From Neoroseomonas alkaliterrae (lineage in GTDB: Bacteria > Pseudomonadota > Alphaproteobacteria > Acetobacterales > Acetobacteraceae): a stretch of 64,000 nt of DNA. The stretch lies in the NCBI RefSeq assembly GCF_014199195.1, contig NZ_JACIJE010000002.1, positions 124,001 through 188,000 on the forward strand. The letters are read 5' to 3'. Shown here piece by piece: positions 1 to 63,576 of the stretch; the stretch's first letter is position 1, and every line of letters begins with the position of its first letter. The position numbers and the translations under genes were made by a program. The notes under the pieces are model-generated. The model saw nothing but the letters and a program-made list of their open reading frames with translations, made no database searches and had not been told where the DNA came from.

Positions 1-669
1 ACGCGCCGGAGCATGCCCTTCGATCCGGTCGAGGACTTCACGCACATGGTGCATCTGGTGGATGCGGCCATGGTGCTTCTGGTGCGCGCGCAATCGCCCT
101 TCCGGACGCTGGAGCAGTATCTCGAGGCGGCGCGCACGCGCCCGGTCCGCTACGGCTCCTCGGGCATCGGCTCGGCGCCGCACCTGCTCGGTGAGCTTCT
201 GAAGGCAGAGGCGCGCACGCCCCAGCTCGACCACGTGCCCTATGCGGGCAGCGCGCCGGCCATGCAGGACCTGCTCGCCAACGTGATCGAGAGCTTCATC
301 GACCCCATCACCACCAATGTCGCGCAGCTTCGCGACGGCTCGCTGCGCGCGCTCGCCGTTTCCTCGCCGCAGCGCCTGCCGGCCTTCCCCGATGTGCCGA
401 GCTTCGCCGAACTCGGCTTCCCGCGCCTGACCGCGGCGCAGTGGCTCGGCCTGTCGGGGCCGAAGGGGCTGCCGGCGCCGGTGGTCGAGCGGCTCACCGC
501 GCTGGTGCCGCCTATGCTCGCCCGGCCGGAGCTGATGCAGCGCTTCGAGGATGTGCAGACCCTGCCGCGCAACCCGCCGCCCGTGGGCGAGGCCTTCGTG
601 CGCCTGATCCGCGAGCAGCTCGCGCAATGGCGCGCGGTGGCCCGCGCGGCCAACATCGAGGTGACCTGA
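1..669 (+). CDS. Bug/TctC-family periplasmic solute-binding protein, 5' end outside window
   Basis: The reading frame is open from base 1, so the start codon and signal peptide lie outside the window; 222 residues are visible. The first complete stretch, MPFDPVEDFTHMVHLVD, is the FDPxxDF segment found about 100 residues into Bug proteins, so that methionine is internal and not a start. Later landmarks are YGSSGIGSAPHL, VPYAGSAPAMQDLL and FPDVPSFAELGFP, all typical of the family. Bug proteins bind small carboxylates in the periplasm and deliver them to TctA/TctB membrane partners, none of which is adjacent. The substrate cannot be read from sequence. The gene ends in a convergent gap holding intergenic repeat copy A. 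Confidence 0.9.
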   Translation, partial: TRRSMPFDPVEDFTHMVHLVDAAMVLLVRAQSPFRTLEQYLEAARTRPVRYGSSGIGSAPHLLGELLKAEARTPQLDHVPYAGSAPAMQDLLANVIESFIDPITTNVAQLRDGSLRALAVSSPQRLPAFPDVPSFAELGFPRLTAAQWLGLSGPKGLPAPVVERLTALVPPMLARPELMQRFEDVQTLPRNPPPVGEAFVRLIREQLAQWRAVARAANIEVT

Positions 670-686
670 CCCCCTGCGGACACAGG

Positions 687-795
687 GACGCCTTTGCCCG
701 CAGGCCATCCGGACCTGGTCCCGCGCGCGGCCGCCCCACCCGCGCCGCGCCCGATACCACCGCGCGAAAGGTCTGACCTTTCGCCCGCTGGCATG
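687..795 (+). repeat. Intergenic repeat family, copy A
   Basis: Copy A lies between two convergent genes. It begins near CCTTTGCCCGCAGG, has a GC-rich core GTCCCGCGCGCGGCCGCCCC (719-738) and ends with the near-perfect palindrome GCGAAAGGTC-T-GACCTTTCGC (764-784) followed by CCGCTGGCAT. The same succession occurs at 8524-8632, 27141-27255, 36755-36851 and, inverted, at 43992-44090. There is no T-run beside the palindrome. It resembles a REP-type element and may act as a bidirectional terminator or mRNA-end stabiliser; the function is inferred. Confidence 0.75.
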
Positions 796-818
796 GCGCC
801 TCCCGCTCGCGCCGTGGC

Positions 819-8061: not shown

Positions 8062-8508
8062 ATGGATGCGGCACTGCGCACACGCTACGGGGTCGAGGGC
8101 GAATGGGCCCTCTGGCAGGAACACACGATCCGCTGGGCGGAATGCGACATCTACGCGCATGTCAACCATGCCGCCTACCTGACGCTGTTCGAGGACATGC
8201 GCATCCGCTGGTGGCTCGAGGCGGGCGGGGGCTTCTCGGCGAGCGAGCCGGGCCCGGTGGTGGGATCGCTCGAGGTGAAATACCTGCGCCCCGGCCATTT
8301 CCGGGACCGCGTGCTGCTGACCGCGCGCACCGCCTCCTTCCGCCGCACCTCCTTCGTGCATGAATACGGCATGTGGCGGGATGGGCTGCTGTGCTCGGCG
8401 CGGGCGCTCTGCGTTGTCGTGGACAACGCGACCGGCGCCAAGGCGGCGATACCCGAGGCGATGCGGCGGCTGATGGCCGAGCGCGACGGGGCCTCGGCGG
8501 AGGGCTGA
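8062..8508 (+). CDS. Acyl-CoA thioesterase, YbgC/FadM-like hotdog fold
   Basis: A 148-residue single hotdog domain. The signature WAECDIYAHVNHAAYLTLFEDMRIRWW contains the conserved Asp of 4-hydroxybenzoyl-CoA-type thioesterases followed by HVN and FExxR. Later come VVGSLEVKYLRPGHFRDRVLL and SFRRTSFVHEYGM. It should hydrolyse a cytosolic acyl-CoA thioester; the chain specificity is not readable. MDAALRTR is preferred as start over an upstream ATG because the fold begins right after it, although the ribosome site is weak. The gene is divergent from the Bug gene and convergent with the DenD-like gene, with repeat copy B in the latter gap. Confidence 0.85.
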   Translation: MDAALRTRYGVEGEWALWQEHTIRWAECDIYAHVNHAAYLTLFEDMRIRWWLEAGGGFSASEPGPVVGSLEVKYLRPGHFRDRVLLTARTASFRRTSFVHEYGMWRDGLLCSARALCVVVDNATGAKAAIPEAMRRLMAERDGASAEG

Positions 8509-8523
8509 AGCCCGGCAGGCATG

Positions 8524-8632
8524 CGGCTTTGCCCGCCGGGCATCAGGCGTTGGTTTCGCGCGCCGCCGCCCCACCAGCCCCGCGCGCATCACCGGCGGAC
8601 GAAAGGGCACGCCTCTCGCCCGCCGGCATGGG
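8524..8632 (+). repeat. Intergenic repeat family, copy B
   Basis: Same order as copy A: GGCTTTGCCCGCCGGGCAT, the core TTTCGCGCGCCGCCGCCCCACC, then a hairpin at 8592-8626. The hairpin has outer arms CCGGCGG/CCGCCGG, an inner CGAAAGG/CCTCTCG region with a mismatch and the loop GCACG, followed by CATGG. It lies in the convergent gap between the thioesterase and the DenD-like gene. Confidence 0.75.
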
Positions 8633-25480: not shown

Positions 25481-26368
25481 ATGCGATCGGCCTTCCACCT
25501 CCTCGTCGTCGCCATCCTTCTGTTCGGCGGGGCCTGGCCGGTGACCAAGGCCGCGCTCGAGCACGCAACGCCCATGTGGTTCGCGGTGGGGCGCGCGGGG
25601 CTCGCGGCCATCGTCTCGGCGCTGCTCCTCGCCGCGCTGGGGCGGCTCCATCCACCGAGGCGCGGGGACATGCCCTCCGTCCTCGCGCTCGGCCTGCTGC
25701 AGCTCGGCGCCTTCTTCGTGCTCGCCCATGCGGCGGTGGCGATGGTCCATGCCGGGCGCACGGCCATCATCTCGGCGGTCGTGACCTATTGGCTGATCCC
25801 GCTCTCGGTGCTGGTGCTGGGCGAGAAGGTTCCCGCCCATCGCTGGGTCGCGGCCGCGCTCGGTCTTGCCGGCGTCGCCGCGCTCGCCGGCCCCTGGGCG
25901 GTGGACTGGTCGGACCGGACGGAACTGCTCGGCCACCTGATGCTGGTGGCCGCCGCGCTGTTCTGGACGCTCGCCATCGTCGCCACGCGCAAATGGCCGC
26001 CGCCGACGCCGGTGTTCGAGCTCCTGCCCTGGTGCTTCGGCCTCGCGACGCTGCTGATCCTGCCCTTCGCGCTGGCGCTGGAACCGCAGGGCGGCATCGG
26101 CGGCCCGTCCTGGCCCTACATGCTCTACATCGGCCTGATCGTGGCCCCGATCGGCACCTGGTGCGTCATCGAGGTCGGCCGGCGCCTGCCCGGCGCGGTT
26201 GCCTCCGTCGCCTTCCTCCTGGTGCCGGCCTTCGGCGTGCTGGTCAGCACGCTGTGGCTGGGCGAGCCGGTGGGCTGGGACATGGCGCTGGGCGGCGGGC
26301 TGATCGTCGCCTCGGTGGTGCTGGCCTCGCGCGAGGCGCGCCCGGCAGCGGCGGATGCGCGCGCATGA
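25481..26368 (+). CDS. EamA/DMT-superfamily transporter
   Basis: A 295-residue inner-membrane protein with about ten transmembrane helices in two EamA repeats. The first repeat begins HLLVVAILLFGGAWPVTKAALEHATPMWFAVGRAGLAAIVSALLL. Repeat two begins near LLGHLMLVAAALFWTLAIVATRKW. The family exports amino acids, purines or other metabolites, and this one cannot be placed more finely. A clear ribosome site is missing before the ATG. A TAGCAT box about 25 bp upstream may be a -10 element giving a very short leader. Its last four bases overlap the next start (ATGA). Confidence 0.85.
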   Translation: MRSAFHLLVVAILLFGGAWPVTKAALEHATPMWFAVGRAGLAAIVSALLLAALGRLHPPRRGDMPSVLALGLLQLGAFFVLAHAAVAMVHAGRTAIISAVVTYWLIPLSVLVLGEKVPAHRWVAAALGLAGVAALAGPWAVDWSDRTELLGHLMLVAAALFWTLAIVATRKWPPPTPVFELLPWCFGLATLLILPFALALEPQGGIGGPSWPYMLYIGLIVAPIGTWCVIEVGRRLPGAVASVAFLLVPAFGVLVSTLWLGEPVGWDMALGGGLIVASVVLASREARPAAADARA

Positions 26369-27126
26369 GGCTCACCGTCACCGAGGCGGGGCAGGGGCCG
26401 CCGCTGATCCTGCTGCACGGGCTGTTCGGCGCGGGGCAGAACTGGGGCGCGATCCGCAAGGCGCTCGCCCCGCGCTTCCGCGTGCTCACGCCCGACCTGC
26501 GGAACCACGGCGCCTCCCCGCGCGCGGCGGGGATGGCCTACGACGCCATGGCGCAGGATGTCGCGGATACGCTGGATGCGGCGGGCATCGCGCGCGCCGC
26601 GGTGCTCGGCCACTCGATGGGCGGGAAGGTGGCCATGGCCTTCGCCCTGGCCCATCCCGGGCGCGTCGAGCGCCTCGTCGTCGCGGATATCGCGCCCGTG
26701 CGCTACCCGCCCGCGCTGCGCGGGTATGTCGCGGCGATGCAGGCGATCCCGCTGCATCCGGGCCTGACGCGGCGGGAGGCCGATGCGGCGCTCGCCGCGA
26801 CCATCCCCGAGGCTGGCATCCGCGCCTTCCTGCTGCAGAGCCTGCGCTTCGAGACCGACCCGCCGTCCTGGCGCCTCGCCCTGCGCGAGATCGCCGCCGC
26901 CATGCCGGAGATCGAGGATGCGCCGCCGGCCGGCGGGCGCCGCTACGACGGCCCCGTGCTGGTGCTGGGCGGCGAGCGGTCGCGCTACATCCTGCCCGAG
27001 CACCACGCGCTGTTCCGCGCGCTGTTCCCGCGCGCCCGCTTCGCCACCGTCGCGGGCGCGGGCCACTGGGTGCATGCCGAGAACCCGCAGGGCTTCCTCG
27101 CGGCGCTGGAGGGCTTCCTGGGCTGA
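26365..27126 (+). CDS. Alpha/beta hydrolase (YbfF-like esterase)
   Basis: A 253-residue single-domain hydrolase. The oxyanion segment is LILLHGLFGAGQNW, followed by RVLTPDLRNHGASP and the nucleophile elbow LGHSMGGKVAM. The late GAGHWVHAENPQGFLAAL carries the catalytic His. The early DLRNHGASPR signature matches YbfF-type esterases, which hydrolyse short acyl or acyl-CoA esters. Translation is coupled to the DMT transporter through an ATGA overlap. The gene ends in a convergent gap that holds repeat copy C. Confidence 0.85.
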   Translation: MRLTVTEAGQGPPLILLHGLFGAGQNWGAIRKALAPRFRVLTPDLRNHGASPRAAGMAYDAMAQDVADTLDAAGIARAAVLGHSMGGKVAMAFALAHPGRVERLVVADIAPVRYPPALRGYVAAMQAIPLHPGLTRREADAALAATIPEAGIRAFLLQSLRFETDPPSWRLALREIAAAMPEIEDAPPAGGRRYDGPVLVLGGERSRYILPEHHALFRALFPRARFATVAGAGHWVHAENPQGFLAALEGFLG

Positions 27127-27140
27127 TACCCTGCGACCAA

Positions 27141-27255
27141 AAGGATCGACCTTTGTCCGCTGGGTTTCAGGGCTTGGTCCCGCGCGCGGCCGCCCCCCTG
27201 CCCCGCGCGCCATGCCAGGGGGCGAAAGGTCAAAGCTTTCGCCCCCTGGCTATGG
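27141..27255 (+). repeat. Intergenic repeat family, copy C (best hairpin)
   Basis: Left part: AAAAGGATCGACCTTTGTCC with its own AAAGG/CCTTT dyad. The core is GGTCCCGCGCGCGGCCGCCC. The right part is a perfect 15-bp stem, GCCAGGGGGCGAAAG (27214-27228) with CTTTCGCCCCCTGGC (27236-27250), loop GTCAAAG. The stem sequence differs from copies A and D while pairing is retained, which indicates selection for structure. It lies between convergent genes in a 256-bp gap; the rest of the gap shows nothing else. Confidence 0.8.
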
Positions 27256-34027: not shown

Positions 34028-34050
34028 TTGCTGGGCCGCAAGGCCCGCAG
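34028..34050 (+). terminator. GCAA-loop hairpin downstream of the DUF839 gene
   Basis: GGGCC (34033-34037) and GGCCC (34042-34046) enclose a GCAA tetraloop, and the stem extends by four further pairs past one bulged T. It lies about 45 bp after the stop at 33982. There is no T-run, so intrinsic termination is uncertain. Confidence 0.35.
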
Positions 34051-34320
34051 CCGGGCGGACAGACGTTCGAGTCCTGCCCGCCGGTTGTCGGGCTATGCGG
34101 TCGCGCGCGGCCCCGGACTTGGGCTGCAAGCGGTTCCCGCGAGCGCGGGGCCGTAAACATGGCGCGCTGGCACGAGGCGCCGCAGCGAGGCCGCACGAAC
34201 GGGACGTGGGCGTCGTCCACCGCCGCCGCCCCGCGCGCGCGGCCGCCTTCCTGCCTGCCGCGTGGCGCTGAGCCCACCTGCCGGTTCCCCGCGCGGCGCT
34301 GCTCTGCCGCGCCCGGAGCC

Positions 34321-36415: not shown

Positions 36416-36856
36416 CGCGGCATCTCCCTGGCATGGGGCTTGGGGTACCGGGTGATAGCCGTCCTGCGCGACAGGGTGGCGACGGCGATGTTGCGATTGG
36501 ATGACGCGATGGGGGCAGGCCGATCCGCGCCGGCGCGCCGGGAACGGCCGTGTGCCGGGCGGGAGCGAAGGGCGTTCGCGACGGTCGCCCCGCGCGTCAG
36601 GCAGGGCGCGGCGGGCGGCCCGCGCCGATCGCCTCACCCCGCTTGCCGGGCGCTGTCTGTCGCGTCTGCCGGCCGATGCCGGGCAGGCGCCACGTCATCC
36701 ACCCGGCGATGCGGCTGCCGCCGCCCATGCCTGGCGGAGACAGGCATCCACCGCGACCCTTTGGGCATCAGCCCCGGGTTCCGCGCCTCGCCGCCGCAAC
36801 GGCCCTGCGCGCGATGCACGGAGGCGAAGGGCCGGCCCCTTCGCCTCCCGGCCTCC
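36416..36856. other. 441-bp region upstream of the PhoX-like gene
   Basis: No gene supported. The proximal 100 bp should hold the promoter of the PhoX-like gene. CTGTCGC on the minus strand about 50 bp upstream is only half a Pho-box unit. GCGAA/TTCGC (36566-36580) and GCCTG/CAGGC (36728-36745) are small dyads. Repeat copy D fills the end next to the small secreted protein gene. Confidence 0.5.
36755..36851 (+). repeat. Intergenic repeat family, copy D
   Basis: GACCCTTTGGGCATC, a shortened core (GGTTCCGCGCCTCGCCGCCGC split around 36778-36797), CCCTGCGCGCGATGC, then a perfect 12-bp stem GGAGGCGAAGGG (36820-36831) with CCCTTCGCCTCC (36837-36848), loop CCGGC. It lies 8 bp beyond the stop of the minus-strand small secreted protein. 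It is the only recognised copy not between two convergent genes. Confidence 0.65.
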
Positions 36857-37192
36857 TCACTGGGTGGTGGCGGGCGCGGCCGGCGCCACGCCGCGCGCCG
36901 CGCGGCGCGACCCGTTGGCAGAGGCGTGCTGGCCGCCGCGGCGCTGGCGGTTCGCCGTGGCTTCGCCGCGGTTGCGCCGCTGCGTCGTGGCCTCGCCGCG
37001 GCTGCGGCGCTGCTGCCGGGCCTCGGTCCGCCGGGTGCGGCGGGTGGAAGAGGCGCGCGGCGCCTCGGCCGAGGCGGCGGTGGCCTCGGTGCCGGCGGTG
37101 GCGGCGCGGGCGCGGCTGCGGGCCGCGTCGGCGGGGCTGAGCGCGCCGAGGGCCAGCATCAGCCCTGCGGCAATCAGGAAGGCGCGGAACAT
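36857..37192 (-). CDS. Small secreted Arg/Ala-rich protein with internal RGEAT repeats
   Basis: 111 residues: a signal peptide MFRAFLIAAGLMLALGALSPADA followed by a very basic, low-complexity mature part. RRSRGEATTQRRNRGEATANRQRRGG shows two RGEAT units about 10 residues apart. No family was recognised. Predicted location is the periplasm or outside, where a polycation could bind DNA, LPS or peptidoglycan; this is speculation. The start was chosen for the signal peptide, with AAGGA nine bases upstream; a longer frame from 37267 also has a fair ribosome site. Repeat copy D follows its stop. Confidence 0.6.
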   Translation of the reverse strand: MFRAFLIAAGLMLALGALSPADAARSRARAATAGTEATAASAEAPRASSTRRTRRTEARQQRRSRGEATTQRRNRGEATANRQRRGGQHASANGSRRAARGVAPAAPATTQ

Positions 37193-43502: not shown

Positions 43503-43979
43503 ATGCGCGCCGTGCTGATCCTGCCGCTCCTCGCGGCCTTCGCCGCACCGGCCCTCGCGCAGGCGCTGCAGCAGCGCCGCCCAGCCGGCCCGCCGCCCGT
43601 CCCGCTGATCGCCTGCCCGCCGAGCGTCGAGGTCGAGCCCGCCGAGCGGCCGCGTGCCCCCCTGGGCTGGGAGGTCCGCCCGGAGCGCCAGCGCCACTGG
43701 CTGCGCGGCGCCGACCTGTTCGAGGGCGACCCGGCCGACCGCGTGCAGCTCAGGCCCGAGACCGGCGGCCAGCCGCGCCGCACCTGGTGGGAGCTGGGCG
43801 GGAGCGCCCAGCCCTATCGCCTCGTCTGCCGCTACGAGGGGCTGGCGGCGGGGCTGGTTGCGCCCGTCCCGGCGGCGGCCAGGCTGTGCGAGATCCAAAG
43901 CGTCCGCGAGGACAGCCGCGGCATGCGCCACGGCCGCGTGGTGCACGGGCCGGAGCAGGTCGCCGTCACCTGCCGCTGA
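43503..43979 (+). CDS. STY0301-like secreted protein
   Basis: 158 residues with signal peptide MRAVLILPLLAAFAAPALAQ. The mature part begins LIACPPSVEVEPAERPRAPLGWEV, then LFEGDPADRVQLRPE, TWWELGGSAQPYRLVCRYEGLAAGLVAPV and LCEIQ. The CPP...W...F.GDP...W.L.....Y.L.CRY order resembles the uncharacterised STY0301 family of small periplasmic proteins. Four cysteines in the mature part may form disulfides. It is probably co-transcribed with the ELM1-family gene and ends in a convergent gap with an inverted repeat copy. Confidence 0.65.
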   Translation: MRAVLILPLLAAFAAPALAQALQQRRPAGPPPVPLIACPPSVEVEPAERPRAPLGWEVRPERQRHWLRGADLFEGDPADRVQLRPETGGQPRRTWWELGGSAQPYRLVCRYEGLAAGLVAPVPAAARLCEIQSVREDSRGMRHGRVVHGPEQVAVTCR

Positions 43980-43991
43980 GGGCGCGCGCCG

Positions 43992-44090
43992 CGCTCAGGC
44001 CAGCGGGCGCAAGGCTTGCCCCTTCATCCGCCGGTTTCGCGCGCGGGACTGGCGGGGCGGCCGCGCGCCAGAGTTGATCTCGCGTCCGCC
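43992..44090 (-). repeat. Intergenic repeat family, copy E (inverted orientation)
   Basis: Read on the minus strand: GGCGCGCGGCCGCCCCGCC, CCCGCGCGCG, ACCGGCGGATGAAGG and GCGCCCGCTGGC follow the same order as copies A-C. The end hairpin is degraded, with only AAGG/CCTT and flanking GC pairs remaining. It fills the 116-bp convergent gap between the STY0301-like gene and the TRAP permease gene. Confidence 0.65.
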
Positions 44091-44095
44091 GCGCA

Positions 44096-46030
44096 TCAGG
44101 CCGCGGCGCGCCCTCGCGTCACCGCCAGCGCGGCGATGCTGGCGGCGCCGATGGCAAGGCCGATGATGTCGGTCGTCGCCTCGGGGATGAGCATGAGCAG
44201 CCCGCCCGCGCCGATGGGCAGCCGCGCCCAGAGCGGCGTCGCACCCACCTTGTAGACATAGCCCTCGAAGGCCGAGGCGATCAGCACCACCGCGACGCTC
44301 GCCGTCAGCACCGATTGCAGGATGGTCACGAGGTCCCCGCGCAGGATGAGCGCCGGCTGCAGGACGAAGAGCACGGGCAGCAGCATCAGCAGGATGCCGA
44401 TGCGCAGGGCCATCAGGCCGGTGACCATGGGCGAGGATTTCGCGATCGAGGCCGCGGCGATGGCCGCGAGCGCCACGGGCGGCGTGATGAAGGAGACGAT
44501 GCCCCAGTAGAGCACGTAGAGATGCGAGGCCATGGGGTCGAGCCCCGCCTGCACCAGCGCCGGCGCCAGCACGATGGCGAGGAAGATGTAGCAGGCCGAG
44601 GCCGTCATCCCCATGCCGAGGATGAAGGAGGTGACGGCGCCGAAGAACAGCAGCAGCGCGACATTCCCGGCCGCGTACTGCACCAGCTCGCGCGAGAAGG
44701 AGTTGGCGACGCCGGTGATGGAGAGCGAGCCGATGATCAGCCCGATGCCCGCGATCAGCGCCACGAGCTGCGCCACCGCCTGCCCGGAATCCACCACCAG
44801 GCCGCAGAAGCGGCGCAGGTCGAAGCCGGTGCTGCGCGCCCTGAGCACGGCGACGACGAGCAGGAACAGGCAGACCCAGAAGGGCGCCTCGGCCTCGATG
44901 CGGAAGGCGAGCAGCAGCACCGTCAGCCCGACGATCGAGGCGATGTAGTACCAGCCCGAGGCGAGCGTCGGCAGCAGCGGCGGCACCTCGGAGCGCGGCA
45001 CGCCGCGCAGGCCGTTGCGCACGGCATAGAGGTCGGTCTGCAGGAACAGCGCGCCGTAGTAGAGGAGGGAGGGCAGCACGGCGGCCACCATCACCTCGGC
45101 GTAGGGCACGTTGAGGAAGTTCGCCATGATGAAGGCGGCCGCGCCCATGACCGGTGGCATCAGCGCCCCGCCGGTCGAGGCGCAGGCCTCCACGGCGCCG
45201 GCGTAATGCGGCGCGTAGCCGCAGCGCTTCATCGTCGGGATGGTCAGGGTGCCCGTTGTCAGCACGTTCGAGGTGGGGCTGCCCGAGAGCATGCCGAAGG
45301 TGGCCGAGGAGACCACGGCGACCTTGGCCGGCCCGCCGCGGCTGGTGCCCATCAGCGCCAGCGCGAAATCCATGAAGAAGGCCGCCCCGCCCGTCGCGGA
45401 GAGCACCACGCCGAAGACCAGGAAGCCGATCAGCGTGTCCGAGACCACCTGCATCGGGATGCCGATGATGCTCTCGGTGCCGAAGACGTGCTCGCGCACG
45501 GTGTCGAGCGGGCTGAACTGCACGCCCCAGAGGAAGCCGGGGGCGCTGTCGGCGACGATGGGAAAGACGCCGAAGATCAGGCAGGCGAAGAACAGCACGA
45601 TCTCTCCGGTGCGGCGCACGCCGTCGAGGATCAGCACCAGCAGCGCGAGCGCGAGCCAGGCCGCCCAGTCGGGCGCCGTCGCGTTCCAGCCGGCGAGCTG
45701 GATCCGCAGCGCCTCGGTCGCGAGCCAGATGCCGAGGCCGAGCGTCGCCGCCGCCAGGATCCAGTCGAACCAAGGCACGCGCGCCTTGTGTGCCTTCACC
45801 GCGGGGAAGGCGAGGAAGGCGAAGGCGCCGAAGAAGCCGATGATGAGATAGTAGTAGGCCGTGCTGATCGGCCTGAAGCCGCCGAGGCCGAGGTTGAAGA
45901 CCTGGTTGACGGTCAGCATGAGGCCGCAGGAGGCCAGCACGAAGGCCGCCCAGAAGGCGGGGCCGGACAGCCGCGTCGAACGCGCCTCGGGATCCTCGGG
46001 GATGGGCGGTGCGGCGGCGGTGCTGGACAT
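44096..46030 (-). CDS. TRAP transporter fused permease (4TM/12TM, TAXI type)
   Basis: A 644-residue membrane protein fusing the small DctQ-like and large DctM-like subunits. The N-terminal helices include AFVLASCGLMLTVNQVFNLGLGGFRPI. The large domain has GRPAKVAVVSSATFGMLSGSPTSNVLTTGTLTIPTMK-like sequence (actual segment GGPAKVAVVSSATFGMLSGS) and EACASTGGALMPPVMGAAAFIMA, both hallmarks of the family, and a late YWGIVSFITPPVALAAIAAASIAKS. It uses a sodium or proton gradient to import carboxylates or amino acids captured by the TAXI protein encoded upstream. An 11-bp-stem hairpin lies between the two genes. Confidence 0.9.
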   Translation of the reverse strand: MSSTAAAPPIPEDPEARSTRLSGPAFWAAFVLASCGLMLTVNQVFNLGLGGFRPISTAYYYLIIGFFGAFAFLAFPAVKAHKARVPWFDWILAAATLGLGIWLATEALRIQLAGWNATAPDWAAWLALALLVLILDGVRRTGEIVLFFACLIFGVFPIVADSAPGFLWGVQFSPLDTVREHVFGTESIIGIPMQVVSDTLIGFLVFGVVLSATGGAAFFMDFALALMGTSRGGPAKVAVVSSATFGMLSGSPTSNVLTTGTLTIPTMKRCGYAPHYAGAVEACASTGGALMPPVMGAAAFIMANFLNVPYAEVMVAAVLPSLLYYGALFLQTDLYAVRNGLRGVPRSEVPPLLPTLASGWYYIASIVGLTVLLLAFRIEAEAPFWVCLFLLVVAVLRARSTGFDLRRFCGLVVDSGQAVAQLVALIAGIGLIIGSLSITGVANSFSRELVQYAAGNVALLLFFGAVTSFILGMGMTASACYIFLAIVLAPALVQAGLDPMASHLYVLYWGIVSFITPPVALAAIAAASIAKSSPMVTGLMALRIGILLMLLPVLFVLQPALILRGDLVTILQSVLTASVAVVLIASAFEGYVYKVGATPLWARLPIGAGGLLMLIPEATTDIIGLAIGAASIAALAVTRGRAAA

Positions 46031-47329: not shown

Positions 47330-49042
47330 TCAACGCGCGCCGGCCATCGCGCCGGGATCGGGCAGCAGCGCATCGGGGATCGTTCCGCCTTCGGGCGCGA
47401 GCGGGTCGCGCGGCAGCACGCGATGCGCGAGGACCATGGCAGCGAGTTCGCGCCTTTCGGGCAGCCCGGCCATCGCCGCCTCCCAGGCGAGGGCGGTGGC
47501 CGAGGCGATGTTGTAGAGCGCGGTCCCGGCCGAGCGCGCCAGCACCGGCCCGCCCTCCCCGAGCGCATGGCGGGCGAGGGCGAAGGCGCGCTCCGTAGAG
47601 TGGGTGAGGTGCGGCAGCGGCTCCGGGGTCGCCGCGCGCAGGGCGGCGAGATGCGCCTCGAGCGCCTCGAGCGAGCCCTCCCGCTGGGCCGCGCGCAGCA
47701 CGTCGAGCGCGACGATGTTGCTCGTGCCTTCCCAGATCGAGCCGAGATGCGCGTCGCGCACGAGGCGCGCGTCCGGGAAGTCCTCGATGTAGCCGCAGCC
47801 GCCGCGCACCTCCATCGCATCGCCGGTGACCACCCGCGCGTCGCGGCAGGCGCGGAACTTCAGCAGCGGCGTCAGGATCCGCAGCAGGGCATAGGCGCCC
47901 GGCTCGCCGGCATCGGAGCGGCGCAGCGCCTCGGCGGTCTGGAAGACCATGGTCCGGGCCTGCTCGGCGCGGACCAGCATCTTCGCGAGCTGGCGGCGCA
48001 TCAGCGGCAGTGTCACGATCGGCGCGCCGAAGGCGATGCGGCGATGGGCGATGTAGAGCGCCTCCGTCACCGCCTTGCGCATCATCCCCGCCGCGCGCAC
48101 CCCGTTCGACAGGCGCGAGTTGTTCACCATGTCGGCCATCTGGCGCATGCCGGCGCCGGGCTCGCCGATCATCCAGGCGGTCGCGCCCTGCAGCGTGATC
48201 TCGCCGCTCGCCATCGAGCGCGTGCCGAGCTTCTCCTTCAGCCGCACGATGCGGTAGCGGTTGGGCGTGCCGTCGGGCAGCACGCGCGGCAGCAGGAAGA
48301 GCGAGACGCCCTTGATGCCCGCCGGCGCGCCCTCGGGCCGCGCCAGCACCATCGCGAGTTCCGCATCGGCGTTGGAGCAGAACCACTTCTCCCCGGTCAG
48401 CGCCCAGGACCCGTCGGCATTGGGCGCGGCGGTGACCGCCGTGTTGGCGATGTCCGAGCCCGCGCCCTGCTCGGTCATGAACATCGCGCCCTGGTGGAGA
48501 TCGTCCAGGTCCTGCGTCGTGAGCATGGGCAGGTAGCGCTCGATCAGCTCCGCGGAGCCGAAGCGGCGCAGCGTCCGCGTCAGGCTGTCGGTCATCGAGA
48601 CCGGGCAGCACAGGCCGAACTCCGCCTGCACGAACAGGTAGGTGATGGCGTATTTCGCCGCCGCCGGCATCGGCGCCGGCCAGCCCAGCACGCCGCCGCG
48701 ATGCGACAGCGCGGCGAGGCCGTATTCGCCGAAGGCGATGCGCTCCATCTCGCGATAGGCGGGGTGGTAGGCGATGGACTGCGCATCCTCGCCGCGGCGC
48801 GTGCGATGGACGAGCTCGGGCGGGTTCACGTCCGCCGTCGCGGCGAGTTCGGCGAGCCGCCCGCCTGCCAGCCCGCCGAGCCGGTCGAGATGCGGCGTGA
48901 GGTGATCGAGCAGGTCGCGCGGCAGGTAGAGCCGCAGCAGCGCGGCGAGCGTCGGGTCTGCCCGCCAGAGGTTGAGGCCGTGGCTGTCCGGGACGGCCTC
49001 GGCGCCCACGGGGGCGGGGCGGTTCGGGCGGATGATGGTCAT
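47330..49042 (-). CDS. Acyl-CoA dehydrogenase, AidB-like
   Basis: A 570-residue flavoprotein with the long AidB-type arrangement. The N-terminal region has DSHGLNLWRADPTLAALLRLYLP, then AKYAITYLFVQAEFGLCCPVSMTDSLTRTL, FMTEQGAGSDIANT (FAD contact), ALTGEKWFCSNADAEL, TPNRYRIVRLKEKLGTRSMASGEITLQGATAWMIGEPGAG split over the middle domain, and GGCGYIEDFPDARLVRDAHLGSIWEGTSNIVALDVL at the end. AidB binds DNA and reacts with alkylating agents; homologues may oxidise branched acyl-CoA. It lies 41 bp downstream of the decarboxylase gene on the same strand. Confidence 0.87.
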   Translation of the reverse strand: MTIIRPNRPAPVGAEAVPDSHGLNLWRADPTLAALLRLYLPRDLLDHLTPHLDRLGGLAGGRLAELAATADVNPPELVHRTRRGEDAQSIAYHPAYREMERIAFGEYGLAALSHRGGVLGWPAPMPAAAKYAITYLFVQAEFGLCCPVSMTDSLTRTLRRFGSAELIERYLPMLTTQDLDDLHQGAMFMTEQGAGSDIANTAVTAAPNADGSWALTGEKWFCSNADAELAMVLARPEGAPAGIKGVSLFLLPRVLPDGTPNRYRIVRLKEKLGTRSMASGEITLQGATAWMIGEPGAGMRQMADMVNNSRLSNGVRAAGMMRKAVTEALYIAHRRIAFGAPIVTLPLMRRQLAKMLVRAEQARTMVFQTAEALRRSDAGEPGAYALLRILTPLLKFRACRDARVVTGDAMEVRGGCGYIEDFPDARLVRDAHLGSIWEGTSNIVALDVLRAAQREGSLEALEAHLAALRAATPEPLPHLTHSTERAFALARHALGEGGPVLARSAGTALYNIASATALAWEAAMAGLPERRELAAMVLAHRVLPRDPLAPEGGTIPDALLPDPGAMAGAR

Positions 49043-49083
49043 GGGCGTCTCCTGCTCGGGGCAGGATACGCCCATGCCGGGCG

Positions 49084-50319
49084 TCAGGCGATGCGCGCGG
49101 CCGCCGTGCCCGCGCCATAGCCCGCGGTCGCGAGCATCGGCGGGTCCGCGACCTCGACCACCAGCGCCCGGTCGAAGCCGTTGAAGGCCGTGCGCAGCGC
49201 CGTGCCATAGGCGCCGAGCTGGCCGATCTCGATCCAGTCGCCCTCCCGCACATCGGCGGGAAGCGTCCATGGTCCGCGCATCACGTCGGCGCTGTCGCAG
49301 GTCGGGCCGAACAGCGTGAAGTCGCGGCGCACCGCGGCCACCGGGTCGCCGCCGGCGCGGATCAGCCGGTGCGGGAAGCGGAAGCCCGGCGCGCCCGCAT
49401 CCGACAGCGCGCCATAGACGCCGTCGTTCACATGGAGCGCATCGCCGCGGCGCTGCTGCACCTGCACCACCACGGAGGCGCCGCCGGCCACCAGCGCGCG
49501 GCCGGGCTCGGCCCAGAGGCGCACGCCCGCGGGCAGCAGCGCCGCGCCGGCGGTGATCGCGGCCATGAAATCGGCGAGCGGGGGCGGCTCGCTGCCTGGA
49601 TAGGCCACCGGGAAGCCGCCTCCGACATCCACGATCTCGACCGCCACGCCGGCCTCACCGATCACCTCGGCGGCGAGCGCGAGCGCCCGCGTCCAGGCCG
49701 ACGGATCGAGGCACTGCGAGCCGACATGGAAGGACAGGCCGAGCCGCGCCGCATGCGGGCGGGCGGCGCGCAGCAGCGCCGCGGCTTCCGCCGGCGCGGC
49801 GCCGAACTTGCCCGAGAGGTCGTAGGCCGCCGAGCCCTTCGGCAGCGCGAGCCGCACGATCAGGCCGAGATCGCCCGCCCCGCCTTCCGTCTCCTGCAGG
49901 ATCTTCGTCAGTTCGGCATCGGTGTCGAGCACGAAGTCGCGCACGCCATGCCGCTGCCAGGCGGCGCGGATGGCCCCGCGCGACTTCACCGGATGCATGA
50001 AATGGATCGAGGCCTCCGGGAACAGGCTGCGGACGAGGCGCACCTCGCCCTCCGAGGCGCAGTCGAAATGCGCCACACCGCCGGCCGCGACGGCGCGCAG
50101 CATGGCGGGCTCGGCGTTGCACTTCACGGCGTAGAGCACGTCGCCCGGGAAGGCGGCGACGAAGGCGCGCGCCGCCGCACGCACCGCCTGCGGGCGCAGG
50201 CAGTGCAGCGGCTCCTCGGGGCGCAGGGCCGCGACCGCGGCATCCACCGTGAGGCGGCGCGGCATGGAGGCGGGGCGGCGGAGCGGCGCGACGGCGCCGC
50301 GGGGGCGGAACTCGGTCAT
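49084..50319 (-). CDS. Ornithine/lysine decarboxylase family protein (fold III PLP)
   Basis: 411 residues. VLYAVKCNAEPAMLRAV holds the PLP lysine (residue 66). ASIHFMHPVKSRGAIRAAW, LSFHVGSQCLDP, VDVGGGFPVAYPGSEPP (phosphate loop), RLWAEPGRALVAGG and LFGPTCDSADVM with the active-site Cys follow. This is the eukaryotic-type ODC family common in alphaproteobacteria; it makes putrescine from ornithine or cadaverine from lysine. MTEFRPRG was taken as start, but an in-frame ATG at 50379 lies in the loop of a strong leader hairpin and a later one at 50265 is nearer the fold. It shares the strand with an agmatinase-like gene. Confidence 0.87.
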   Translation of the reverse strand: MTEFRPRGAVAPLRRPASMPRRLTVDAAVAALRPEEPLHCLRPQAVRAAARAFVAAFPGDVLYAVKCNAEPAMLRAVAAGGVAHFDCASEGEVRLVRSLFPEASIHFMHPVKSRGAIRAAWQRHGVRDFVLDTDAELTKILQETEGGAGDLGLIVRLALPKGSAAYDLSGKFGAAPAEAAALLRAARPHAARLGLSFHVGSQCLDPSAWTRALALAAEVIGEAGVAVEIVDVGGGFPVAYPGSEPPPLADFMAAITAGAALLPAGVRLWAEPGRALVAGGASVVVQVQQRRGDALHVNDGVYGALSDAGAPGFRFPHRLIRAGGDPVAAVRRDFTLFGPTCDSADVMRGPWTLPADVREGDWIEIGQLGAYGTALRTAFNGFDRALVVEVADPPMLATAGYGAGTAAARIA

Positions 50320-62082: not shown

Positions 62083-63576
62083 TCAAGCGGGAACCGGCCG
62101 CCGCAAGCGGCGCAGCAGCCAGACGAAGGCCGGCCAGAGCAGCGCCGCGACCGTCATCGCGGCCAGCACCGAGGAGACCGGGCGCTCGAAGAAGGGCAGC
62201 AGGTCGCCATCCGACTTGATGAGCGAGGTGACGAAGTTCTGCTCCACCATGGTGCCCATCACGATCCCGAGCACCATGGCCGCGACGGGAAAGCCGTTGC
62301 GCTCCATCACGTAGCCGATCACCCCGAACACCGCGACAAGCACGATCGCGAAGGGGTTGTTGCCGATGGCGAAGGCGCCGACGGCGCAGAGCAGCAGGAT
62401 CATCGGCATCGCCGCCGCGCGCGGGGCGCGCAGCACGTGCCGCGAGGCGCGGATCATCATGATGCCGAGCGGGATCATCAGGATGTTGGCGATGATGAAC
62501 ACCATGTAGAGCGCGTACATGCTGCTCGCCTTCTCGGTGAACAGCGTGGGGCCGGGGTTCAGCCCCTTCATGTAGAGCACGCCGATCGCGATCGCGGTGA
62601 TGGTGTCGCCGGGGATGCCGAACAGCGTCGCCGGCACCCATCCGCCGGCGAGCGCGGAATTGTTCGCCGCCCCGGATTCCACGAGGCCCTCGGGGTGGCC
62701 GGTGCCGAACTTCTCCGGCTCCTTCGAGAATCGCTTGGAGTTCGCATAGGCGATCCAGGCGGCCATGTCCGCCCCCGCCCCGGGCAGGGCGCCGACGAGC
62801 ACGCCCACCACGTTGCCGCGCCACATCTGCTTCTGGTAGCGCCGCGTCAGCGCCCATTGCCCGCCGAGGATCGAGCCCAGCGGCCGGTGCGGGATGGGCG
62901 GCGGCGGGGCCGCGGTCATCGCGCGCATGATCTCGCTGACGGCGAAGACGCCGACCAGGGCGGGCAGCACCTCGATCCCGCCGAGCAGGTCCGTGAAGCC
63001 GAAGGTGAAGCGCGGCACGCCGCCCGGATTCTCGATGCCGATGCAGGTGACGAGGAGCCCGAGCAGCGCCGCGGCGATCGCCTTGATGGGGGAGGAGCGC
63101 GCGACCAGCGTCGCGCACATCAGGCCGAGGAAGGAGAGCCAGAAATACTCGAAGGTCGAGAAGGAGAGCGCCATCTCCGCCAGCGCGGGCGCCATGATCA
63201 TCAGCGCCACCGTGCCGAAGATGCCGCCCAGCGCGCTGAACCACAGCGAGGCGCCGAGCGCGATCTCCGCCTGCCCCTTGCGCGTCAGCGCATAGGCCTC
63301 GTCGGTATAGGCCGCCGAGGCGGGCGTGCCGGGGATGCGCATCAGCGCGCCCGGGATGTCGCCCGAGAAGATCGCCATCGCCGAGGCGGTGATGATGGTC
63401 GCGATCGCCGCGATGGGCGAGAGATAGAAGGTGACGGGGACGAGCAGCGCCGTCGCCATGGTGGCGGTCAGCCCCGGCAGGGCGCCGATGACCATGCCGT
63501 AGGCGGCGGAGGCGAGGATGGCGATCGCGACCTCCGTGGTCGCGACCATCCCGAAGGCTTCGAGCACCGCGTTCAT
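62083..63576 (-). CDS. tctA: Tripartite tricarboxylate transporter large permease TctA
   Basis: A 497-residue protein with about twelve transmembrane helices. AYGMVIGALPGLTATMATALLVPVTFYLSP and AIFSGDIPGALMRIPGTPASAAYTDEAYALTRKGQAEIALGAS are the conserved N-terminal family motifs. GALPGAGADMAAWIAY, GVVESGAANNSALAGGWVPATLFGIPGD (as LVESGAANNSALAGG) and the late EQNFVTSLIKSDGDLLPFFERPVS are typical. It moves the carboxylate with protons or sodium. The ATG lies 4 bp after the tctB stop, and tctC follows. Confidence 0.93.
   Translation of the reverse strand: MNAVLEAFGMVATTEVAIAILASAAYGMVIGALPGLTATMATALLVPVTFYLSPIAAIATIITASAMAIFSGDIPGALMRIPGTPASAAYTDEAYALTRKGQAEIALGASLWFSALGGIFGTVALMIMAPALAEMALSFSTFEYFWLSFLGLMCATLVARSSPIKAIAAALLGLLVTCIGIENPGGVPRFTFGFTDLLGGIEVLPALVGVFAVSEIMRAMTAAPPPPIPHRPLGSILGGQWALTRRYQKQMWRGNVVGVLVGALPGAGADMAAWIAYANSKRFSKEPEKFGTGHPEGLVESGAANNSALAGGWVPATLFGIPGDTITAIAIGVLYMKGLNPGPTLFTEKASSMYALYMVFIIANILMIPLGIMMIRASRHVLRAPRAAAMPMILLLCAVGAFAIGNNPFAIVLVAVFGVIGYVMERNGFPVAAMVLGIVMGTMVEQNFVTSLIKSDGDLLPFFERPVSSVLAAMTVAALLWPAFVWLLRRLRRPVPA

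Follow-up and report, generated by a model that had tools for sequence, protein, structure and literature searches.

A mobile two-hairpin repeat family, probably MITE-like, that abuts stop codons in Acetobacteraceae

The CcrM-associated intergenic repeats CIR1-4 of Caulobacter and other alphaproteobacteria are about 110 bp long, strictly intergenic, and consist of two long hairpin arms and a linker; they carry GANTC, the CcrM site, in the terminal loop, and their mobility was left open (PMC2229807). YPAL, also named RU-2, is a mobile palindromic repeat of Yersinia with known empty sites and with direct repeats of 3 to 26 bp, and has targets near dyad symmetry (PMC2229807). RUP, NEMIS/Correia and ERIC are MITEs with a TA target and one set of terminal inverted repeats (PMC2229807). 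The GTAG and CGTC super-families of REPs are defined by an unpaired GTAG or CGTC tag at one end; the CGTC REPs of alphaproteobacteria are without a dedicated transposase and were reported missing from Acetobacteraceae (PMC3733652). For the repeat family described here, a literature search found no published description in Acetobacteraceae.

The window, i.e., the whole stretch of 64,000 nucleotides of Neoroseomonas alkaliterrae (the source genome) that was analysed, contains five copies, A to E, named in an earlier note (Table 1). All five are recovered by a covariance model with a hand-set secondary structure (E 2.5e-26 to 4.6e-7, E-values being computed over 400 kb of contig) and are thus real. 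The alignment of 30 genome copies with their flanks yields the consensus CTGATGCCCTGCGGACAAAGGATCAACCTTTGTCCGCAGGGCATCAG, GATCTGGTTCCGCGCGCGGCCGCCCCACCAGCCCCGCGCGC, CATACCAGCGGGCGAAAGGTCAAACCTTTCGCCCGCTGGCATGAG, read in succession, of 133 bp, which is larger than the 100-115 bp suggested before. The repeat unit is composed of a 47-nt palindrome, HP1 (in full CTGATRCCCTGCGGACAAAGG-ATCAA-CCTTTGTCCGCAGGGYATCAG), the conserved core GCGCGCGGCCGCCCCACCAGCCCCGCGCG and a second hairpin, HP2. In the predicted fold of the consensus (-96.5 kcal/mol), HP1 forms a 21-bp hairpin, followed by a small core stem and HP2 as a second long hairpin. TRCC is the stem base of both long hairpins, with the core between them, and TRCC tips and AAGG-type arms are common to both ends of the element. 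The left element of the plan drawn in the earlier note corresponds to the inner arm of HP1 alone, the outer arm having been missed; copy C has its true start about 17 bp further left than given there, so that the former start falls into the middle of HP1.

Table 1. Repeat copies in the window and parts of copy C. Gene calls stem from our own hexamer model and are approximate.
Feature	Position	Strand	Evidence	Neighbouring gene
Copy C, full (HP1, core, HP2)	27123..27255	+	covariance model, 118 bits, E 2.5e-26	TGA 27124-27126 is the stop of the upstream gene called 26365-27126
HP1 of copy C, type I hairpin	27123..27170	+	alignment and fold of genome consensus	
Core GCGCGCGG...CCGCGCGC of copy C	27182..27210	+	sole part with sequence common across genera	
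HP2 of copy C, type II hairpin	27212..27252	+		
Copy A, full element	666..797	+	covariance model, E 9.7e-21	TGA 667-669 is the stop of a TctC-family gene ending at 669 (gene call and Pfam)
Copy B, full element	8505..8632	+	covariance model, E 1.1e-20	TGA 8506-8508 is the stop of the gene called 8062-8508
Copy D, HP1 eroded, HP2 intact	36724..36857	+	covariance model, E 4.6e-7	right end adjoins the 3' end of a gene on the minus strand, called 36857-37192
Copy E, HP1 lost	43994..44085	-	covariance model, E 3.2e-12	flanked by convergent genes called 43503-43979 (+) and 44096-46030 (-)

Three further places in the window (34044-34176, 49035-49140 and 62372-62478) are matched weakly by the model, with E 0.07 to 0.14, and may be eroded copies of the family. 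Within the core, CTGGT/ACCAG is a pseudoknot candidate, which is paired in 82.6% of cases among the genome copies and has a covariation near nil. Read on the reverse strand, the core consensus includes the Chi octamer of E. coli, GCTGGTGG (in the core of the copies, e.g., 27182-27210); this may be chance, because the copies do not all preserve the octamer strictly. A solitary hairpin as the basic unit was rejected: the one strict candidate in 400 kb turned out to be a full copy (L043:13073-13205).

Approximately 15 copies or fragments exceed 30 bits in 400 kb of contig, and E-values go down to 1e-53. A query built from the five copies has at least 40 matching places in the genome, most of them with 78-90% identity, as judged from 40 scored candidates out of 157. 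Allowing two mismatches at most, we counted 53 cores in the 4.24-Mb draft genome and 0 with the reversed-pattern control, so the search for dozens of intergenic matches, proposed in the earlier note, is positive. Rfam has no match in the window at the gathering threshold, and the view that this is an unnamed, structured and intergenic repeat family is borne out.

The proposed extension to further Acetobacteraceae also succeeded, as the core with at most one mismatch is present in 32 of 299 genomes of this family and in 21 of 102 genera (reversed control 0); outside the family, a class-wide sample of approximately 187 genomes gave one match, with two mismatches. A scan of named genomes found the exact core in Elioraea sp. 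Yellowstone, which has the most matches, E. tepidiphila, Neoroseomonas eburnea, N. soli, Roseomonas rubea and an Acidocella MAG. Around the same core, each lineage has its own stem sequences and has amplified its own version of the element; in Elioraea sp. Yellowstone, the core is, as read from the sequences, inverted relative to the two hairpin types. GANTC resides at fixed positions in other genera (loci L211, L213, L221, L222, L231, L232 and L235), about 13 bases before the core and 26-27 after it, in the HP2 loop. It is found in 2 of 30 source-genome copies, elsewhere in the element, and is absent from the Yellowstone consensus.

Some forms consist of the core alone. Core-only stem-loops without the hairpins are seen in L057, L059 and L060 (genomes G009, G020 and G018) around position 1500 and in L084 around 1124. 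At an orthologous place in three relatives, such a stem-loop lies a few bases past the stop codon of a gene reading as livK and before livH, and in the Acidocella MAG one follows another stop codon. The copies of genus g85 are likewise without hairpins. Locus L209 of this genus carries three exact tandem cores at 1420-1530 (G297:C5:9996-10104), with a period of 40 bp and the unit ...TATTTTGCGCGCGGCCGCCCCACCAGCCCCGCGCGCCTGG. The core-only forms may be domesticated remnants, or the core may have originated from them. In relative G009, the window's repeat family is nearly absent; another dispersed palindrome (GAGCATC.TCACCCGATCAGATGAG...) seems to be present there in at least two gaps (L137 and L182).

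The stems are rewritten between genera with pairing kept over long times, and the core is fixed. Across genera, HP2 retains 182 of 192 pairs (shuffled mean 134, maximum 149) and shows 49 both-side changes (shuffled 12.7, maximum 29); HP1 retains 171 of 180 pairs (shuffled 120, maximum 139) with 48 both-side changes (shuffled 16.1, maximum 29), where the set comprises mostly one or two elements per genus and the shuffle control is somewhat favourable because the elements were picked for folding. Within one genome, pairing mostly decays. Among the 30 source-genome copies, 85.8% of the pair cells are paired, and both-side changes amount to 35 cells versus 20 after shuffling; these lie largely at two subfamily-like positions (e.g., TGATACC/GGTATCA versus TGATGCC/GGCATCA), and most differences break a pair. 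The earlier statement that pairing is kept while sequence drifts is therefore strong between genera and weak among the copies of the source genome. From the "functional structured element" postulated on these grounds, the structure remains; the residents decay, mostly uncompensated, and signatures of transposition, namely TNA direct repeats, a recent burst and sites without the element, come first. Since pairing is kept in the long term while residents decay, selection for structure appears to act on spreading copies and not on every resident. Spreading would need pairing and stranded residents would decay, which would produce the compensated turnover of the stems.

The element is mobile. In Elioraea sp. 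Yellowstone, 33 copies share 95-100% identity with one consensus, and several are identical. Directly outside the TRCC tips, a TNA triplet lies on either side of the element, and the two form a 3-bp direct repeat. From 21 source-genome copies with TNA at both ends, 20 are concordant (14 TGA/TGA, 5 TCA/TCA, 1 TTA/TTA) and one is discordant (permutation P 3e-5); other genera show concordance in 14 of 15 copies, including TAA/TAA and TTA/TTA (permutation P 3e-5). C precedes and G follows the TNA in about two thirds of cases, and C-TGA-G is the favoured target context. Orthologous gene ends or gene pairs without the element exist in relatives at about 80% identity, a distance because of which the breakpoints are not base-exact in every case. 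At site L018, for example, the gene in relatives stops at the identical codon (...TTTTGA or ...TTCTGA), and the sequence beyond it runs on without the element. At L021, the 3' end of the partner gene is without the element in 11 relatives, and this is not a clean empty site because the neighbouring gene differs.

The most striking feature, which is absent from the earlier note, is insertion at stop codons. The adjacent TNA is exactly the stop codon of a gene (gap 0) in 27 of 30 source-genome copies compared to 4.9% of control TGAs, a figure that covers all genomic TGAs and overstates the targeting; the fairer test within the gaps hit gives 27 exact-stop copies versus 20.3 of 29 expected (P about 1e-4). 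Part of the siting is due to the scarcity of TNA in a genome of 73% G+C. Exact abutment is also found in 16 of 21 copies of Elioraea sp. Yellowstone and in 18 of 28 copies of other genera. In the source genome, 25 of 30 copies lie between convergent genes, although only 57 of 388 intergenic gaps are convergent, and none lies between divergent genes. Nor is the orientation random, as the type I hairpin is turned towards the stop codon in 22 of 27 exact-stop copies of the source genome and in 16 of 16 of Elioraea sp. Yellowstone, where most copies away from stop codons are likewise oriented by TGA. As the duplicated target is the stop codon, the gene retains a stop of its own and the element comes to lie in the 3' gap.

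Such siting could also be expected from a device for 3' ends which the host maintains, i.e., from hairpins that terminate transcription in both directions or stabilise mRNA 3' ends and whose copies selection retains for this function. The position at stop codons, mostly between convergent genes, the very stable hairpins of the predicted fold, and the core-only stem-loops directly after stops, e.g., in the orthologous livK-livH gap of three relatives, are in agreement with it. We consider this explanation unlikely, since near-identical copies in one species and other stems in the next point to spread, residents decay with broken pairs, and most orthologous gene ends in relatives are without the element. 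A function at 3' ends may be compatible with mobility plus later use.

In our best reading, to which we assign a probability of roughly 0.8, the repeats are a non-autonomous, MITE-like family across Acetobacteraceae that is moved in trans by a putative TNA-specific transposase. The duplication of TNA in a CTNAG context is made by IS5-type (IS1031 group) and PIF/Harbinger transposases, and a DDE transposase acting in trans is therefore the first guess. Such an enzyme, most likely of the DDE type, would move copies with intact hairpins, and purifying selection would remove insertions inside genes. The TNA target together with this selection would explain most of the siting at stop codons, with a residual preference left over. 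We infer both the enzyme and any benefit to the host. The conserved interior is unusual for a MITE and counts against the MITE-like reading; the orientation bias is unexpected for a symmetric DDE target, and the DDE model does not explain it.

In the source genome and in Elioraea sp. Yellowstone, neither a mobilising transposase nor an insertion sequence with ends matching the repeats was found. The IS5-type DDE transposases of both genomes were rejected, as the inverted ends found, such as GGCTCAGGAC or CTAGGTCCTG, are unlike the hairpin ends. Partial Yellowstone copies were considered as flanks of an autonomous element and discarded, their neighbours being ordinary save for a fragment of an IS5-type transposase. 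On contig C24 of the same genome, locus L191 holds an IS5-like insertion sequence at about 1325-2476 that has the ends TGAGACCTGTGCGCGGGAG and, apparently, a direct repeat of TGA; it is the only TNA-type insertion sequence seen in a carrier genome, and its ends are unlike the repeats. The lead of the earlier note to a RAYT-type transposase failed: Y1_Tnp (PF01797) has no match in the source genome and 12 others (carriers and close relatives), with E. coli and Caulobacter among the positive controls.

A tentative and rather doubtful idea is that the family represents a new mode of mobility, in which the enzyme would read the hairpin structure and the core instead of the stem sequence, and would place the element into TGA stop codons, always in the same orientation. 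If true, at least 21 genera of Acetobacteraceae would harbour a transposition system that has a harmless landing site built in.

Alternatively, a structure-specific enzyme of the IS200/IS605-like kind, and not a DDE transposase, could read the hairpins as single-stranded DNA together with an oriented TGA target. The stems, whose sequence changes while pairing stays, and the orientation of TGA, also away from stops in Elioraea sp. Yellowstone, would suit such an enzyme. We judge it improbable given the lack of Y1_Tnp in the 13 genomes and the 3-bp direct repeat, which IS200/IS605 is not known to make; moreover, no bias for a replication strand exists, as a preference for the lagging strand was rejected with 15 of 35 copies agreeing with the third-position skew. 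That the repeats are chance hairpin-like sequence, for which a core of pure G+C and a window of about 73% G+C could be cited, is practically out of the question in view of the reversed controls (0 versus 53 in the source genome; 0 in 299 genomes of the family) and of E-values down to 1e-53.

Read as MITE-like, the family is a transposable element that multiplies in a compact genome almost without cost, since the duplicated triplet is the stop codon and the host gene thus stays intact. With stems rewritten many times around a fixed core, it separates the sequence that an enzyme reads from the structure that it reads, and the enzyme, if found, would make the targeting of stop codons directly testable. 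The family could also bear on the open question of CIR mobility and on the transposase-less CGTC REPs.

In comparison with known systems, the repeats resemble REPs and REPINs, which are moved by RAYT, in being palindromic, extragenic and present in many copies, and the alphaproteobacterial CGTC REPs in that no dedicated transposase was found. An identity with the GTAG or CGTC REPs was rejected, as the consensus has neither tag and the 13 genomes no Y1 transposase. With TA-target MITEs they share a length of about 100-160 bp, inverted repeats, a target duplication and a presumed movement in trans; in contrast to them, either end forms a palindrome of its own, and conservation is highest in the interior. 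As in MITEs generally, the elements are short (133 bp), non-coding and dispersed in many copies (53 for the core), the concordant TNA triplets reveal a target site duplication, and orthologous sites without the element exist. YPAL is equally mobile and palindromic, likewise has direct repeats as well as empty sites, and reportedly tends to insert near stop codons (a finding ascribed to De Gregorio et al., 2006). Compared by description only, the Acetobacteraceae repeats differ from it in a fixed 3-bp TNA instead of duplications of 3-26 bp, in the stop codon itself as target, and in the plan of two hairpins with a conserved core. With CIR they have in common the intergenic location, two hairpin arms joined by a linker and, in several other genera, GANTC in the HP2 loop and in the linker. 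Unlike CIR, the source-genome version lacks GANTC in the terminal loop; within the sample, the core is restricted to Acetobacteraceae, a separation from CIR made by description; and the TNA duplication and the siting at stop codons are shown here, where CIR mobility was left open. CIR and YPAL are the closest relatives, the repeats fit neither definition in full, and we place them within the MITE-like bacterial repeats, as possible kin to CIR.
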